Positions 35,548 to 41,606 of a stretch of 64,000 nt of DNA are shown here, piece after piece. Every line of letters starts with the position of its first letter. The first letter of the stretch is position 1. Both the position numbers and the translations under genes were made by a program. Below the pieces are notes generated by a model. That model was not told where the DNA came from, did not search any database, and worked only from the letters and a program-made list of their open reading frames with translations. Origin of the DNA: Allobosea sp. (lineage in GTDB: Bacteria; Pseudomonadota; Alphaproteobacteria; Rhizobiales; Beijerinckiaceae). The stretch is taken from the NCBI RefSeq assembly GCF_017308015.1, contig NZ_JAFKFW010000014.1, positions 113,345-177,344 of the forward strand. Direction: 5' to 3'.

Positions 35548-38500
35548 CTATTGCAGCCTGACATCGACCACGCCGGGCGCGGCGCGCACGGCATTGGCGA
35601 TCTGCTGGTTGACCGGGAACTTGCCGGGCAGTTCGATCTCGACCTCCTGGGCGCCGTCGTCGATGATCATGACGATCGAGACCTTGCCCTCGGCGCGCAT
35701 CGCCTCACGCGGGCGAAGGCGTTCGGCAACGGAAGCCACAGCCTTGTCGTCGCGGAGATAGACGACGAGATCCTGCTTCTGGCGCGCGGCGAGGCCATCG
35801 AGCTCCTCGGCATCCTCGATGCGCGGGCGTACCTCTTCGCCGTCGAGCACGGCGGAGAGCCGCAGCACCAGCGCCCTGCCCGGCTCGAGCAGGTCGCGCA
35901 GCTTCATCAGCCCTTCCGAGAACAGCACGGCCTCGAACTGGCCGCTCGGATCGGACAGGTTGACGATGCCCATCTTGGAGCCGGATTTGGTGCGCCGCTC
36001 CGACTTGTCGATGACGGAAACAGCGACCTTGCCGACGCCGGTGCCGTTGACCTTCACCGTCTGCGCGAAATCGGCATAGCGCTGCACGCGCAGGCGCTTC
36101 AGCACATGCTCGTAATCGTCCAGCGGGTGGCCGGAGAGGAAGAAACCGACCGCCTCATGCTCGCGCCTGAGCTTCTCGGCCGGCGCCCAAGGCTCGACCT
36201 GCGGGATGCGGAAGGCCTCCTGCACCACGCCACCGCCGAGCAGGTCGAACTGGCCCGCCGCGGCCTCGTCGCGGGTGCGGTTCGAGAGCGCCAGCATGCC
36301 GTCGAGCGCCGCAACCGCTCGTGCGCGATCCGCCTCCAGCTCGTCGAGTGCGCCGGCAGCGATCAGTGCTTCCAGCGTGCGGCGGTTGACGAGCCGGGTG
36401 TCGATGCGCCGCGCGAGATCGGCGAGATCGCGGAACGGGCCATTCGCCTGCCGCGCCGCCACGAGCGATTCCACGGCCGCCGTGCCGACGCCCTTGATGG
36501 CACCGAGGGCATAGAAGATCTTGCCATCGGCCACGTCGAACTCGACGCCGGACTGGTTGATCGCCGGCCGCTCGACCTTGATGCCCAGACGCTCGGCATC
36601 GCGGCGGAATTCCGAGAGCTTGTCGGTATTGCCCATGTCGAGCGTCATCGACGCGGCCAGGAACTCGACCGGAAAATTCGCCTTCAGATAGGCGGTCTGG
36701 AAGGCGACGATGGCATAGGCCGCCGCGTGGCTCTTGTTGAAGCCGTAATCGGCGAACTTCGCCAGCAGGTCGAAAATCTCGGAGGCGACGTCCTTCTTGA
36801 TGCCGCCCTCGATCGCGCCCTTCACGAAGCGGTCGCGCTGGGCGTCCATCTCCGCCTTGATCTTCTTGCCCATGGCGCGGCGCAAGAGGTCCGCTTCGCC
36901 GAGCGAATAGCCCGAGAGCGCCTGCGCCACCTGCATCACCTGTTCCTGGTAGACGATGATGCCGTGGGTCTCGCGCAGATAGGGCTCCATGCCGGGGTGG
37001 AGATAGGTCGGATCCTCCAGCCCGAGCTTGCGGCGGCAATAGGTCGGGATGTTGTCCATCGGGCCCGGCCGGTAGAGCGCCACCAGCGCGATCAGGTCCT
37101 CGATCCGGTCGGCCTTCATCTCGACCAGCGCCTTGCGCATGCCGACCGATTCCACCTGGAACACGCCGACCGTCTCGCCGCGGGCCAGCATGGCGTAGGT
37201 CGTCGGATCGTCGAAGGGCAGTTTGGCGAGATCGATATCGATGCCGCGCTGGGCGATGAGCTTCACGGCCGTGGTCAGCGTGGTCAGCGTCTTCAGGCCG
37301 AGGAAGTCGAACTTCACCAGCCCGGCCTGCTCGACCCATTTCATGTTGAACTGGGTCACGCGCATGCCGGTGCGCGGATCGACCGAGAGGGCGACGAGCT
37401 GTTCGAGCGGCCGGTCACCGATCACCACGCCTGCGGCGTGAGTCGAAGCATGGCGGTGAAGCCCTTCCAGCTTCTGGCCAATTTCGAGCAGGCGCGCGAC
37501 GATCGGCTCCTCCTCGGCCGCCTGCTGCAGCTTGGGCTCGCCCTCGATCGCATCCTTCAGCGAGATCGGCTTGGCCGGGTTCTGCGGCACGAGCTTGGTC
37601 AGCTTGTCGACCTGGCCATAGGGCATCTCCAGCACGCGGCCGACGTCGCGCAGCACGCCGCGGGCGAGCAGCGTGCCGAAGGTGATGATCTGGGCGACGC
37701 GCTCCTGCCCGTAATGACGCTTGACGTAGTCGATCACCTCTTCACGCCGGTTCTGGCAGAAGTCGATGTCGAAGTCCGGCATCGAGACACGGTCGGGGTT
37801 GAGGAAGCGCTCGAAGAGCAGGCCGAAGCGCAGCGGATCGACGTCGGTGATGGTCAAGGCATAGGCAACGAGCGAGCCCGCGCCCGAGCCGCGCCCCGGA
37901 CCGACCGGGATGTCCTGGTTCTTCGCCCATTTGATGAAGTCCGAGACGATCAGGAAGTAGCCCGGAAACTTCATCCGGGTGATGATCGAGAGCTCGAAAT
38001 CGAGCCGCTTCTCGTAATCCTCGACGCTGAAGCCTTCGGCCGGGCCGTGCTTGGCGAGCCGCGCGGCGAGGCCGGCGCGCGCCTGTTCCTGAAGCTCCTC
38101 CGCCTCGTCACGGCCCTCCTCGCCGAAGCGCGGCAGGATCGGCTTGCGGGTGGTGACGCGCCAATGGCAGCGCATCGCGATCTCGACCGTATTCGCCAGC
38201 GCCTCCGGCAGATCGGCGAAGCGCTTCTTCATCTCGGCGCGCGAGGCGAAATAATGCTCCGGCGAGACGCGGCGGCGCGTGCCATCGGAAACAAGGCGGC
38301 CTTCGGCGACAGCCAGCAGCGCATCATGCGCGTCGAAATCGGCGGGCTTGGCGAAGAAGGGCTCGTTGGTCGCGACGATCGGCAGATCGGCATCATAGGC
38401 GAGCCGCAGAAGATGGGCCTCGCGCGCCGCCTCACCGTCGCCGCCGTGGCGCTGGATCTCGACATAGAGCCGGTCGCCATAGATGCCGGCGAGCGTCGCG

Positions 38501-39021
38501 AGGCGCGACGCCGCCTGCGGGAGCTGGCCGAGACGCAAGGCAACGTCGATCGGCCCGCCCTGCCCGCCGGTCAGCGCGATCAGGCCGGTATCGTAGGCGG
38601 CGAGGCGCTCGATCGTAGTGACCGGCTGGCCGGAACCGCCGGTCGCCAGAGCCGCCTCGCTGACGAGCTTCATCAGGTTGCCGTACCCGCCCTCGTCCAT
38701 GGCCAACAGGACGATATGCGGCAGGCGCTGCGGCTGCGTCGGCTTGCGGCTGCCCTCGCCCTCATCGGCGAAATCGACCGAGAGCTGCACGCCGACGATC
38801 GGCTGCAGGCCCGAGCCCGCCAGCTTCTCCGAGAATTCGAGGCCGCCGAAGAGATTGTCGGTATCAGTCAGCGCCAAAGCTGGCTGGCCGTCGGCCGCGG
38901 CCATCTTGGCGAGCGTCGCGATCGTCATCGCGCCTTCGAGCAGCGAATAGCTCGAATGGACATGCAGGTGGACGAAGCCGATCTCCTGGAGAACGCGCGC
39001 CTCGCCAGCTTCCCGACCCAT
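35548..39021 (-). CDS. dnaE: DNA polymerase III alpha subunit
   Basis: Replicative polymerase of the chromosome. The ATG at 39021 with AGGAG upstream gives 1157 residues. The PHP domain starts at FVHLHVHSSYSLLEGAM; the polymerase palm has GRGSGAGSLVAYAL and the catalytic aspartates in MPDFDIDFCQNRR; the C-terminal part has the HhH region, the OB fold and the tau-binding end. A 36-residue SOS peptide gene lies 116 bp upstream on the same strand, and the SOS promoter there may also feed dnaE. Confidence 0.97.
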   Translation of the reverse strand: MGREAGEARVLQEIGFVHLHVHSSYSLLEGAMTIATLAKMAAADGQPALALTDTDNLFGGLEFSEKLAGSGLQPIVGVQLSVDFADEGEGSRKPTQPQRLPHIVLLAMDEGGYGNLMKLVSEAALATGGSGQPVTTIERLAAYDTGLIALTGGQGGPIDVALRLGQLPQAASRLATLAGIYGDRLYVEIQRHGGDGEAAREAHLLRLAYDADLPIVATNEPFFAKPADFDAHDALLAVAEGRLVSDGTRRRVSPEHYFASRAEMKKRFADLPEALANTVEIAMRCHWRVTTRKPILPRFGEEGRDEAEELQEQARAGLAARLAKHGPAEGFSVEDYEKRLDFELSIITRMKFPGYFLIVSDFIKWAKNQDIPVGPGRGSGAGSLVAYALTITDVDPLRFGLLFERFLNPDRVSMPDFDIDFCQNRREEVIDYVKRHYGQERVAQIITFGTLLARGVLRDVGRVLEMPYGQVDKLTKLVPQNPAKPISLKDAIEGEPKLQQAAEEEPIVARLLEIGQKLEGLHRHASTHAAGVVIGDRPLEQLVALSVDPRTGMRVTQFNMKWVEQAGLVKFDFLGLKTLTTLTTAVKLIAQRGIDIDLAKLPFDDPTTYAMLARGETVGVFQVESVGMRKALVEMKADRIEDLIALVALYRPGPMDNIPTYCRRKLGLEDPTYLHPGMEPYLRETHGIIVYQEQVMQVAQALSGYSLGEADLLRRAMGKKIKAEMDAQRDRFVKGAIEGGIKKDVASEIFDLLAKFADYGFNKSHAAAYAIVAFQTAYLKANFPVEFLAASMTLDMGNTDKLSEFRRDAERLGIKVERPAINQSGVEFDVADGKIFYALGAIKGVGTAAVESLVAARQANGPFRDLADLARRIDTRLVNRRTLEALIAAGALDELEADRARAVAALDGMLALSNRTRDEAAAGQFDLLGGGVVQEAFRIPQVEPWAPAEKLRREHEAVGFFLSGHPLDDYEHVLKRLRVQRYADFAQTVKVNGTGVGKVAVSVIDKSERRTKSGSKMGIVNLSDPSGQFEAVLFSEGLMKLRDLLEPGRALVLRLSAVLDGEEVRPRIEDAEELDGLAARQKQDLVVYLRDDKAVASVAERLRPREAMRAEGKVSIVMIIDDGAQEVEIELPGKFPVNQQIANAVRAAPGVVDVRLQ

Positions 39022-39137
39022 GTCCCACTCCTGTCGCCGCAACCGGGCGACTCGTCGATCCCGGCTCTTCTTATGCGTCCGGGACGTGGCCGGCGTCGAG
39101 GCCCAGGAGCCCGGTCTGTGGATGGCTGCTGCCGCCT

Positions 39138-39248
39138 TCAGACATGCGGGCCCGAGAGGATGGCAGCCCAGAGCCAGATCATGCCGAGGAAGACGCCGAG
39201 CGAGGCGATCTCGGCCAGGCCGGCGGCGAATTTACGCGCTGCAGTCAT
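39138..39248 (-). CDS. 36-residue membrane peptide under LexA boxes (SidA-like candidate)
   Basis: A minus-strand ATG at 39248 preceded by AGGAGG at an eight-base distance opens a 36-codon frame ending with TGA at 39138. The peptide begins with MTAARKF and continues in one hydrophobic segment, about residues 8-31 (LAEIASLGVFLGMIWLWAAI), then SGPHV. It is thus a single-span inner-membrane peptide with its positive charge inside. Two perfect LexA boxes lie over the promoter. Caulobacter SidA, a 29-residue LexA-controlled membrane peptide, blocks division through FtsW after DNA damage; this gene has the same design, but sequence homology was not tested. TisB-like toxins are the other option. Too short for routine gene callers. 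Confidence 0.72.
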   Translation of the reverse strand: MTAARKFAAGLAEIASLGVFLGMIWLWAAILSGPHV

Positions 39249-39261
39249 GAAAACCTCCTGT

Positions 39262-39304
39262 GTTCTCGATAAGTTCAGTTTAGTTCACTTTTTGTTCTCG
39301 TCAA
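39262..39304 (-). promoter_or_regulatory. SOS promoter: two LexA boxes and sigma70-like promoter
   Basis: GTTC-N7-GTTC occurs twice: at 39262-39276 (GTTC TCGATAA GTTC) and 39283-39297 (GTTC ACTTTTT GTTC). On the minus strand a TTGACG (39304-39299) and TAAACT (39282-39277) separated by 16 bases form a sigma70-type promoter overlapped by both boxes. The start codon of the small peptide follows 14 bases after the nearer box. This is a textbook arrangement for LexA repression. Confidence 0.8.
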
Positions 39305-39622
39305 TGTCGATAGGGAAACCAGGCCGGCAATCCCGGCACGGAGGTTAATGAAACCTTGCCGGCATTCTGAGGCGGTACCAGCGATCAGCGGTGCTGCTCG
39401 AAGATTGCCACGGATACGAGGGGTCGACGTGAACCGGACCTTCCGCGCCCTGTTTCGGCGACACCTGGTCTCAAGACGCGGACGCTCGCCACGAGGGCGA
39501 GCATGACACGATGTCGTTTCCGGGCGGAAATCTTCGCCACCCTTCCGCGGCGTGCCGAAAGCCCGAAGCCAGCATGTCGCAGGTCATTGCTGGCAAGGAT
39601 CTGGCCGATGGGAACCAGCCGC
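39305..39622. other. Gap of about 320 bp between the SOS promoter and lolD
   Basis: No gene, repeat or hairpin is apparent. The stretch separates the dnaE/SOS unit from the 3' end of lolD. Confidence 0.4.
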
Positions 39623-40309
39623 CTACAGCTTGACCACCAACCCGTCGCGGATCGTGACCTGCCTGTCCATCTGACCGGCAAGTTCGAGGTTGTGCGTCGC
39701 GATCAGCGCCGCCAATCCCGAGGCCCGCGCCAGCGCCATCAGCGTGCCGAAGACATGCTGCGCGGTCTGCGGGTCGAGATTGCCCGTCGGCTCGTCGGCC
39801 AGCAGCAGGCGCGGGCCGTTGGCGACGGCGCGGCCGATAGCGACGCGCTGCTGTTCACCGCCAGACAACTCGCTCGGCAGATGGTCGAGCCGCTCGCCGA
39901 GACCAAGGAAGGTCAGAAGCTCGGAGGCGCGCTCCTCGGCGATTCCACGCGAGAGGCCGCGGATGCGCTGCGGCAGCACGACATTCTCCAGCGCCGTGAA
40001 CTCGGGCAGGAGATGGTGGAACTGGTAGACGAAGCCGATCTCGGTGCGACGCAGGCGCGTGCGCCCCTTGTCGTCGAGCTTAGTCGTGGCAAGCCCGCCG
40101 ACAAAGACCTCGCCGGCATCGGGCTTCTCCAGGAGGCCTGCGACATGCAACAGCGTCGACTTGCCAGTGCCGCTCGGCGCGACCAGCGCGACGACCTCGC
40201 CCGGCCAGAGCGCGAAATCGGCCTTGCGGAGCACTTCGAGCGGTGCGTCGCTCTGCGGATAGTAGCGCTCGACCTGGGAGAGGAAGAGCGCGGGCATTTC
40301 TTGCGCCAT
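39623..40309 (-). CDS. lolD: Lipoprotein-releasing ABC transporter ATP-binding protein
   Basis: ATPase of the LolCDE complex, which extracts mature lipoproteins from the inner membrane for transfer to LolA. The 228-residue protein has Walker [10 protein letters not shown] (residues 44-52), the Q-loop [15 protein letters not shown] typical of LolD, the LSGGEQQR signature and Walker [13 protein letters not shown]. It starts five bases after the stop of the permease gene, so both are one operon. Confidence 0.94.
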
Positions 40310-40313
40310 CGCG

Positions 40314-41606
40314 TCAGCCCATCCTCAGCGCTTCGACCGGGTCGAGGCGCGCCGCCTTCCAGGCCGGGTAGAGCGTCGCCAGGAGCGACAGCGTCAGCGC
40401 CATCAGCACCACGCTCACCACCTCGCGCCAGTCGGTAACAGAGGGGATGTCACTCAGGAAGCGCACGGTCGGGTCCCAGAGATTGGCGCCGGTGATCCAG
40501 TTCAGCGCCGCCATGATCGACTTGATGTTCTTGGCGAAGACGACGCCGAGCGCGAGGCCGGCCAGCGTGCCGATGACGCCGATCGCAGCCCCGGTGATCA
40601 GGAAGACGCGCAGCACCGTGCCGCGCGTGCAGCCCATGGTGCGCATGATCGCGATATCGGCGGTCTTGTCCTTCACCAGCATGATCAGACCGGAGACGAT
40701 GTTCAAAGCCGCGACCAGCACGATCAGCGTCAGGATGATGAACATCACGTTCCGCTCGACTTCCAGAGCGTTGAAGAACGAGCGATTGCGCTGGCGCCAG
40801 TCGGAAAGCACGAGCGGGCGTGGCGCATCGGCCTCGATCGCGTCGCGGACGGCCTGGGTCCTATCGGGATTGTCGACGAAGATCTCGATGACGTTCACGT
40901 CGCCGTCGCGGTTGAAATAGGCCTGCGCTTCGGCAAGCGGCATGTAGACGAAGGTGCCGTCGAATTCGGTCATGCCGATCTCGAAGATCGCCTTGACCGG
41001 ATAGGCCTTGATCCGCGGCGCAGTGCCGAAAGGCGTCGAGGCGCCCTGCGGCGAAACCAGCGTCATCATGTCGCCAGCCTGGATGCCCAGCGCATTGGCG
41101 AGGCGCCGGCCGATGGCGACGCCGGGCGTCCCGCCGTCGAAACCGTCGAGCGTGCCGGACTTGATGTTGCCGCCGATGAACGGAATCGCCTTGATGTCGC
41201 TCTCGCGCACGCCGCGCACCAGCACGCCGTTATTGCCGGTCTGCGAGGAGGCGAGCGCCTGCCCTTCGACCAGCGGAATAGCGAGCTTGATGCCGGGAAT
41301 CTTGGCGAGCCTGGCCGCAACACTGTCATAATCGTCCAGCGGGCGGTCGATCGGAGTCGCGAAGATATGGCCGTTCACGCCGACGATCTTGCTGAGCAGT
41401 TCGATCCGGAAGCCGTTCATCACCGACATCACGATGATCAGCGTGGCGACGCCGAGCATGATGCCGAGGAAGGAGAAGCCGGCGATGACCGAGACGAAGC
41501 CCTCGCGCCGGCGGGTGCGCAGATAGCGCCCGGCGAGTTGCCACTCGAAACCGGCGAAGGCCTTGGTTCCGGTCGGGATATCGGCGCTGTCGGCGACGGC
41601 GCTCAT
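40314..41606 (-). CDS. lolC: Lipoprotein-releasing ABC transporter permease LolC/LolE
   Basis: Permease of the LolCDE complex in the inner membrane. The 430-residue protein has the MacB/FtsX-type layout: one membrane helix after [16 protein letters not shown], a periplasmic domain (residues about 50-280) and three helices at the C-terminal end ending in [18 protein letters not shown]. Alphaproteobacteria usually have one LolC/E-type permease acting as a homodimer. Lies between proS and lolD in the same direction. Confidence 0.94.

Follow-up and report, generated by a model that had tools for sequence, protein, structure and literature searches.

Caulobacter SidA is described as a 29-amino-acid (29-aa) inner-membrane protein that acts on FtsW and holds FtsW/I/N inactive (PMC4211646), and models of 2026, which are not of high confidence, put it on transmembrane segment 7 (TM7) of FtsW (PMC13396833). 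Here we report, from a 64,000-nt stretch of Allobosea sp. DNA (the window, whose positions are our coordinates throughout), a gene directly upstream of dnaE that encodes a 36-aa peptide with a single predicted membrane span, behind two perfect LexA-type boxes. We propose, at a probability of roughly 0.8, that it encodes a divergent SidA homologue at the sidA locus, repressed by LexA and, once DNA is damaged, stopping septation, with FtsW as the probable target.

TisB of Escherichia coli is a LexA-controlled short single-span membrane peptide which, like DinQ and unlike the product proposed here, acts on the membrane itself; YneA, SosA and ChiZ of Gram-positive bacteria are larger proteins. DinQ is likewise described as a short membrane peptide under LexA control (PMC3567139). 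YneA, SosA and ChiZ would share with our candidate that they are DNA-damage-induced membrane inhibitors of late division, and YneA binds FtsW (PMC13396833). DidA of Caulobacter is, as SidA is, a small single-span division inhibitor on the FtsW/I/N complex (PMC4211646), but it has 71 aa, binds FtsN, is encoded at another locus and is SOS-independent, being controlled by DriD.

The locus upstream of dnaE

Read on the minus strand, positions 39138-39304 present in order TTGACG, GAAC-N7-GAAC, TAAACT, a second GAAC-N7-GAAC, AGGAGG and an ATG with its 36 codons. An earlier note on this DNA had described such a frame upstream of dnaE, with AGGAGG and one membrane span, and two perfect boxes lying on the promoter; both descriptions are borne out, the frame ending 116 nt before dnaE. 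The elements are as follows.

39138-39248, minus: SidA-like 36-aa single-span membrane peptide MTAARKFAAGLAEIASLGVFLGMIWLWAAILSGPHV, absent from the supplied list of open reading frames (ORFs)
39254-39259, minus: Shine-Dalgarno sequence AGGAGG, 5 nt upstream of the ATG
39262-39276, plus: LexA-type box 2, GTTCTCGATAAGTTC, a perfect GTTC-N7-GTTC between the -10 hexamer and the ATG
39277-39282, minus: -10 hexamer TAAACT, from the promoter scan
39283-39297, plus: LexA-type box 1, GTTCACTTTTTGTTC, a perfect GTTC-N7-GTTC within the -35/-10 spacer
39299-39304, minus: -35 hexamer TTGACG, from the promoter scan, with an N16 spacer to TAAACT
35548-39021, minus: dnaE, DNA polymerase III alpha subunit (NF004226, 1443 bits, cut-off 1002), taking the ATG at 39021 as its start

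The GTTC reading of the two boxes is that of the plus strand; in gene sense each is GAAC-N7-GAAC. The TTGACG-N16-TAAACT match (minus strand, 39304-39277) is the sole promoter-like site in 38950-39620 (shuffle mean 0.1), and no terminator-like site was found in this same span, which covers the gap between peptide and dnaE. A single GTTC-N7-GTTC is not rare, with 3 in the 64 kb against 1.4 expected; when the 110 nt upstream of the start codon were shuffled by mononucleotides, at least one box appeared in 35 of 20,000 shuffles and two boxes in none. The four GAACs of 39262-39297 are spaced by 11, 10 and 11 nt, and their positions are found again across the genus. Because the second and third are separated by a gap of only 6 nt, LexA could bind this stretch in the register of the two boxes or in one shifted against it. 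The membrane location of the peptide is a prediction, its highest 17-residue Kyte-Doolittle mean being 2.11. For dnaE the most likely start is the ATG at 39021, behind AGGAG and 116 nt past the stop codon of the peptide; the TTG at 39042, given in the ORF list, is less likely.

The same place in Caulobacter holds sidA

In the Caulobacteraceae, 62 of 63 dnaE loci have a frame of 28-30 aa (58 of them exactly 29 aa) and a box at the same place, the box having no mismatch in 33 loci and one mismatch in 29. This set was drawn from 30 genomes, recognised via CtrA (94 percent in G738), and from named Caulobacter-type records; 2 of 65 loci were dropped for short flanks, and the set holds 59 distinct upstream stretches. 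A class search with a single dnaE had brought up no Caulobacteraceae at its cut-off. Three of the Caulobacteraceae frames were scored with NF033228, the model 'cell division inhibitor SidA' (29 positions, cut-off 35 bits), and reached 72.7 bits (C. vibrioides OR37), 59.7 bits (L105) and 57.5 bits (C. segnis). Since these frames score above the SidA cut-off, we place sidA of Caulobacter directly before dnaE, in agreement with the published gene numbers (sidA as CCNA_02004, PMC10769358; dnaE as CC1926, PMC1839093), and the window gene occupies the same place.

The two genes thus share their position directly before dnaE, a LexA-type box at the promoter, one span and a similar length. They differ in that the window peptide has 36 aa against the 29 of SidA and its gene has two perfect boxes within 36 nt. 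They differ also on the side away from dnaE, where the window carries two genes for ATP-binding cassette (ABC) transport.

39623-40309, minus: lolD-like ABC ATPase gene, upstream neighbour (best model TIGR02211 LolD, 237 bits, under the cut-off of 307.75)
40314-41606, minus: lolC/E permease gene, upstream neighbour (TIGR02212, 478 bits, cut-off 362)

An ABC-ATPase signature, as of lolD, was found within 1500 nt upstream in 26 of the 33 loci tested from the genus of the window, and more seldom in the Caulobacteraceae (counts below), so that the lasting link of synteny is mainly on the dnaE side. LolD was tried as a guide to the locus and dropped in favour of dnaE, most of the 30 loci obtained from the best LolD-model matches not lying beside dnaE.

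Conservation of the frame in the genus and family

The frame was found by hidden Markov model (HMM) search in all 42 dnaE loci of the genus, the window included, these being 42 distinct upstream stretches; conservation in relatives, the absence of which the earlier note had named as refuting, is therefore clear. Pairwise over these loci, the ratio of nonsynonymous to synonymous differences (pN/pS) comes to 0.40 when the peptide frame is read, as against 1.23 and 1.86 for the two alternative frames, and the differences fall chiefly in third codon positions (8429, 4994 and 13725 at positions 1, 2 and 3). The regulatory elements are kept as well: 39 of 42 loci have a box with at most one mismatch no more than 110 nt from the start, a strict box lies inside 70 nt in 28 (two strict boxes in 13), TTGAC stands 2-4 nt ahead of a GAAC upstream of dnaE in 40, and GGAG, GAGG or AGGA adjoins codon 1 in 40.

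Elsewhere in the family, among 108 dnaE loci from other genera, 62 have the peptide, with a perfect box inside 110 nt of the start in 57 of these 62 and a box with at most one mismatch in 61. The 108 are what remains of 109 genomes of other genera that gave a dnaE match once G042 is set aside, this genome being already counted in the class set as L044, where box and peptide are present and the profile match is weak. The family HMM was built from 18 seeds, 17 of them from the family itself and many among the loci counted, so that the count is in part built in. When the search was instead iterated from SidA-type peptides alone, it recovered 41 of 41 genus loci (the window being excluded) and, in other genera, the same total of 62 of 108, losing L273 and L285 and gaining L316 and L320. 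The distance from the peptide stop to the FVHL codons of dnaE runs from 35 to 408 nt in these other genera. At L217, about 290-445 nt ahead of dnaE, both the SidA-like gene (-344 to -443) and the pair of boxes belonging to it (-328, -307) run in the opposite orientation to dnaE; control of the peptide would thus be separable from control of dnaE, and the usual arrangement is not required.

Homology of the window peptide family to SidA

Profile-profile comparison of a 27-sequence window-family alignment with a 21-sequence Caulobacteraceae profile gave, over 30 columns, a probability of 89, an expectation value (E) of 2.2e-6 and a score of 25.1. None of 300 permutations of each of two kinds reached this score (maxima 16.6 with full columns permuted and 19.5 with the membrane part permuted), and the reversed profile gave 6.5. 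An iterative search, seeded with the 21 Caulobacteraceae SidA-type peptides and run against the frames upstream of dnaE at 172 loci, taken forward, in reverse and shuffled, gathered 9 loci in its first round, none from the genus of the window; with these added, the window frame ranked first of 1395 window frames in the second round, with an E of 0.011. Once converged, the search matched 117 of the 172 loci by forward frames, none by shuffled frames and one by a reverse frame, this last being L217, a true member with boxes in inverted copy. The converged E for the window frame, 6.8e-14, is inflated by the near-identical genus sequences then in the profile. Because of the profile-profile score and the iteration from SidA-type peptides, we take the window family and SidA to be homologous. 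In a 12-sequence alignment running from the window peptide to SidA, F20 is invariant and L14 and M23 are nearly so; the FVWMM of SidA is not kept.

Several results weigh against so close a tie to SidA, and we give them together. An HMM built from SidA alone and run against the 1395 window frames placed the peptide only sixth (E 6.1, 13 seeds) or twenty-third (E 22, 21 seeds). NCBIfam gives the window peptide no family at E up to 10, leaving it under the 35-bit cut-off of NF033228, and finds a SidA match in none of 11 other peptides from outside the Caulobacteraceae (for one of them YmiC is matched weakly, at E 0.11). In the opposite direction the window-family HMM sees Caulobacteraceae frames weakly, 19 of 63 at E <1, with two reverse-strand matches. 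By profile, 46 of the 108 other-genera family loci lack a forward copy, inverted L217 among them (L211, L212, L221, L222 and L226 are examples of loci where none was found). Of the 30 Caulobacteraceae loci from the CtrA-recognised genomes 7 have an ABC-ATPase signature in the 1500 nt upstream, and of 34 named Caulobacter-type loci none has (the L161 flank being 161 nt); the model strain C. crescentus NA1000 is outside the records compared. Lastly, the class-wide loci set out below are recruited only in part: the converged profile took in 6 of 15 with box and membrane-span frame and left out 9. Pfam has no model for these peptides, the peptide of L008 having two matches far under the cut-offs (E 0.03 and 0.07).

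On balance the window peptide appears to be a distant homologue of SidA, outside the NCBI equivalog NF033228 and joined to it through intermediates and position. The likeness to the SidA design that had been suggested from the letters of the window has in this way been strengthened, sidA of Caulobacter lying before dnaE behind a box of the same kind and the two families being homologous. We consider the gene, its boxes, the promoter match, the purifying selection, the conserved linkage to dnaE and the homology of the two families to be established here.

Reach across the order and class

The bare 36-aa peptide found 8 other matches in 297 genomes of the order (E 6.6e-5 to 0.01), all with a box just upstream; the four with ORFs listed (L002, L004, L008 and L009) lie between lolD and dnaE. 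For the class we searched 385 genomes for dnaE in two runs, took the 60 best matches and merged duplicates, which, with L058 lost, left 53 distinct dnaE loci. Within 500 nt a strict box was found in the gene sense in 18 of the 53 and in the other sense in 8, and a reversed control pattern, on either strand, in one. At 17 of these 18 loci a small frame with a membrane span begins no more than about 95 nt from the box; of 1750 points chosen at random in loci lacking a box, 75 had such a frame. The 17, less the window and a near-duplicate, make up the 15 mentioned above. The class-wide picture would therefore be partly one of homology and partly one of similar design. In nine named records from outside the Caulobacteraceae (L165-L173: Dongia, Cypionkella, Pseudorhodobacter, Rhodospirillaceae and a metagenome-assembled genome), the 500 nt leading up to dnaE (321 nt in L166) contain no strict box.

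LexA-type boxes elsewhere in the genome

GTTC-N7-GTTC is enriched in the genome from which the window comes, with 123 occurrences against 62 for the reversed pattern. Among the genome matches listed we picked 13 box regions, mostly for AT-rich spacers, and three of them each stand before a gene of interest: the first gene is imuA-like (58.9 bits against a model cut-off of 150), the second is of the YifB/ComM type, and the third is a PA0069-family radical S-adenosylmethionine (SAM) gene (541 bits, cut-off 360; box L232, G000:C16:562263). Both comM and splB are among the SOS genes reported or predicted for alphaproteobacteria in PMC3323433, and the radical SAM gene may be the splB of that paper. 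Boxes of the same type at these three genes lead us to expect LexA repression and SOS induction as the control of the peptide gene. Another of the 13, at exonuclease I (L242), was considered as marking a LexA target and dropped, its GTTC-N7-GTTC sitting inside the coding frame.

The third box of the window, GTTCTCTTAATGTTC (2213-2227, minus), lies 20 nt ahead of a 76-aa minus-strand frame beginning MSAQPADQSVKDTTLDAEVAGL (the feature spanning 1962-2227), which has a 75-aa paralogue elsewhere in the genome (L233) with a box of its own, GTTCTCATAATGTTC. Pfam gave no match for either frame and NCBIfam none for the 76-aa frame; the pair is possibly a second unlisted family of SOS small proteins.

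Proposed action and alternative explanations

How LexA represses the gene in vivo, how the peptide is oriented, what it targets and what phenotype results we infer as follows. In undamaged cells LexA would sit on one or both boxes, in the promoter spacer and between the -10 hexamer and the start codon, and keep the gene off. DNA damage would bring about RecA-driven cleavage of LexA and free the promoter, so that the 36-residue peptide could be made and inserted by its one membrane helix, with the basic end inside and the C-terminus outside. Being homologous to SidA, it is expected to keep FtsW/FtsI/FtsN, the late divisome, in an inactive state until LexA is back, and cells would meanwhile elongate without dividing. 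Read-through into dnaE might, as a possible and secondary effect, raise the replicative polymerase at the same time.

The peptide might instead be an SOS-controlled SidA homologue whose target is another divisome or envelope protein than FtsW (for example FtsN, as for DidA), and the absence of the FVWMM stretch, with few positions kept besides F20, L14 and M23, would suit another partner. Its size, however, is similar to that of SidA, position, kind of regulation and single span are shared, and contact of SidA with FtsW is reported, for Caulobacter (PMC4211646); we think a different target unlikely. A peptide of the TisB/DinQ kind, lowering the membrane potential after SOS induction and leaving septation unblocked, has its precedents in the LexA-controlled short single-span peptides introduced above, but the homology of the peptide family to SidA makes this quite improbable.

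The frame could also be a leader that serves the control of dnaE, through coupling or through LexA, as might be thought from its conserved place before dnaE, from the lack of a terminator-like site found between the two, and from the citation of dnaE as SOS-regulated in C. crescentus (PMC3323433). Against this, the amino-acid sequence itself is under selection (pN/pS 0.40), the distance from stop to FVHL varies more than tenfold, and at L217 the gene is inverted relative to dnaE, and we give a leader role very little credence. As for a chance meeting of frame and boxes, a lone box is indeed to be expected about 1.4 times in 64 kb, but two arose in none of the 20,000 shuffles, and conservation at 42 of 42 and 62 of 108 loci together with the in-frame pN/pS has already refuted it, so that its probability is practically nil. 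We accordingly keep to the divergent SidA homologue as our explanation of the locus.

The further suggestion of the earlier note, that dnaE might itself come under SOS control through this position, fares less evenly: it is plausible, given that no terminator-like site was found between the genes and given the published citation just mentioned, but the inverted copy at L217 indicates that such control is not fixed. Because the order is box, peptide, dnaE, the box of C. crescentus dnaE would be first of all that of sidA, and LexA boxes earlier assigned to dnaE probably belong in the first place to the SidA-like gene.

Implications for SOS division control in Alphaproteobacteria

A literature search that did not cover the 2011 SidA and 2004 LexA-regulon papers found no report of an SOS division inhibitor in alphaproteobacteria beyond Caulobacter. 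Our analysis supplies a concrete candidate for one in a single genus, and a family profile that finds members in further genera. The published LexA regulation of dnaE in Caulobacter can also be read in another way, with the box fronting a division-inhibitor gene, and the natural variation of the family (29 to about 44 aa, with few fixed residues) can be used to ask which SidA residues contact FtsW.

The interest of the finding lies in its breadth and in this re-assignment of the dnaE boxes. We incline, at somewhat better than even odds, to the view that SidA is an old SOS division checkpoint of the Alphaproteobacteria, kept beside dnaE for most of the history of the class and missed as too short to annotate; that the LexA sites credited to dnaE in published regulons would mainly be sidA sites; and that the linkage to dnaE may tie the stop in division to extra replicative polymerase.
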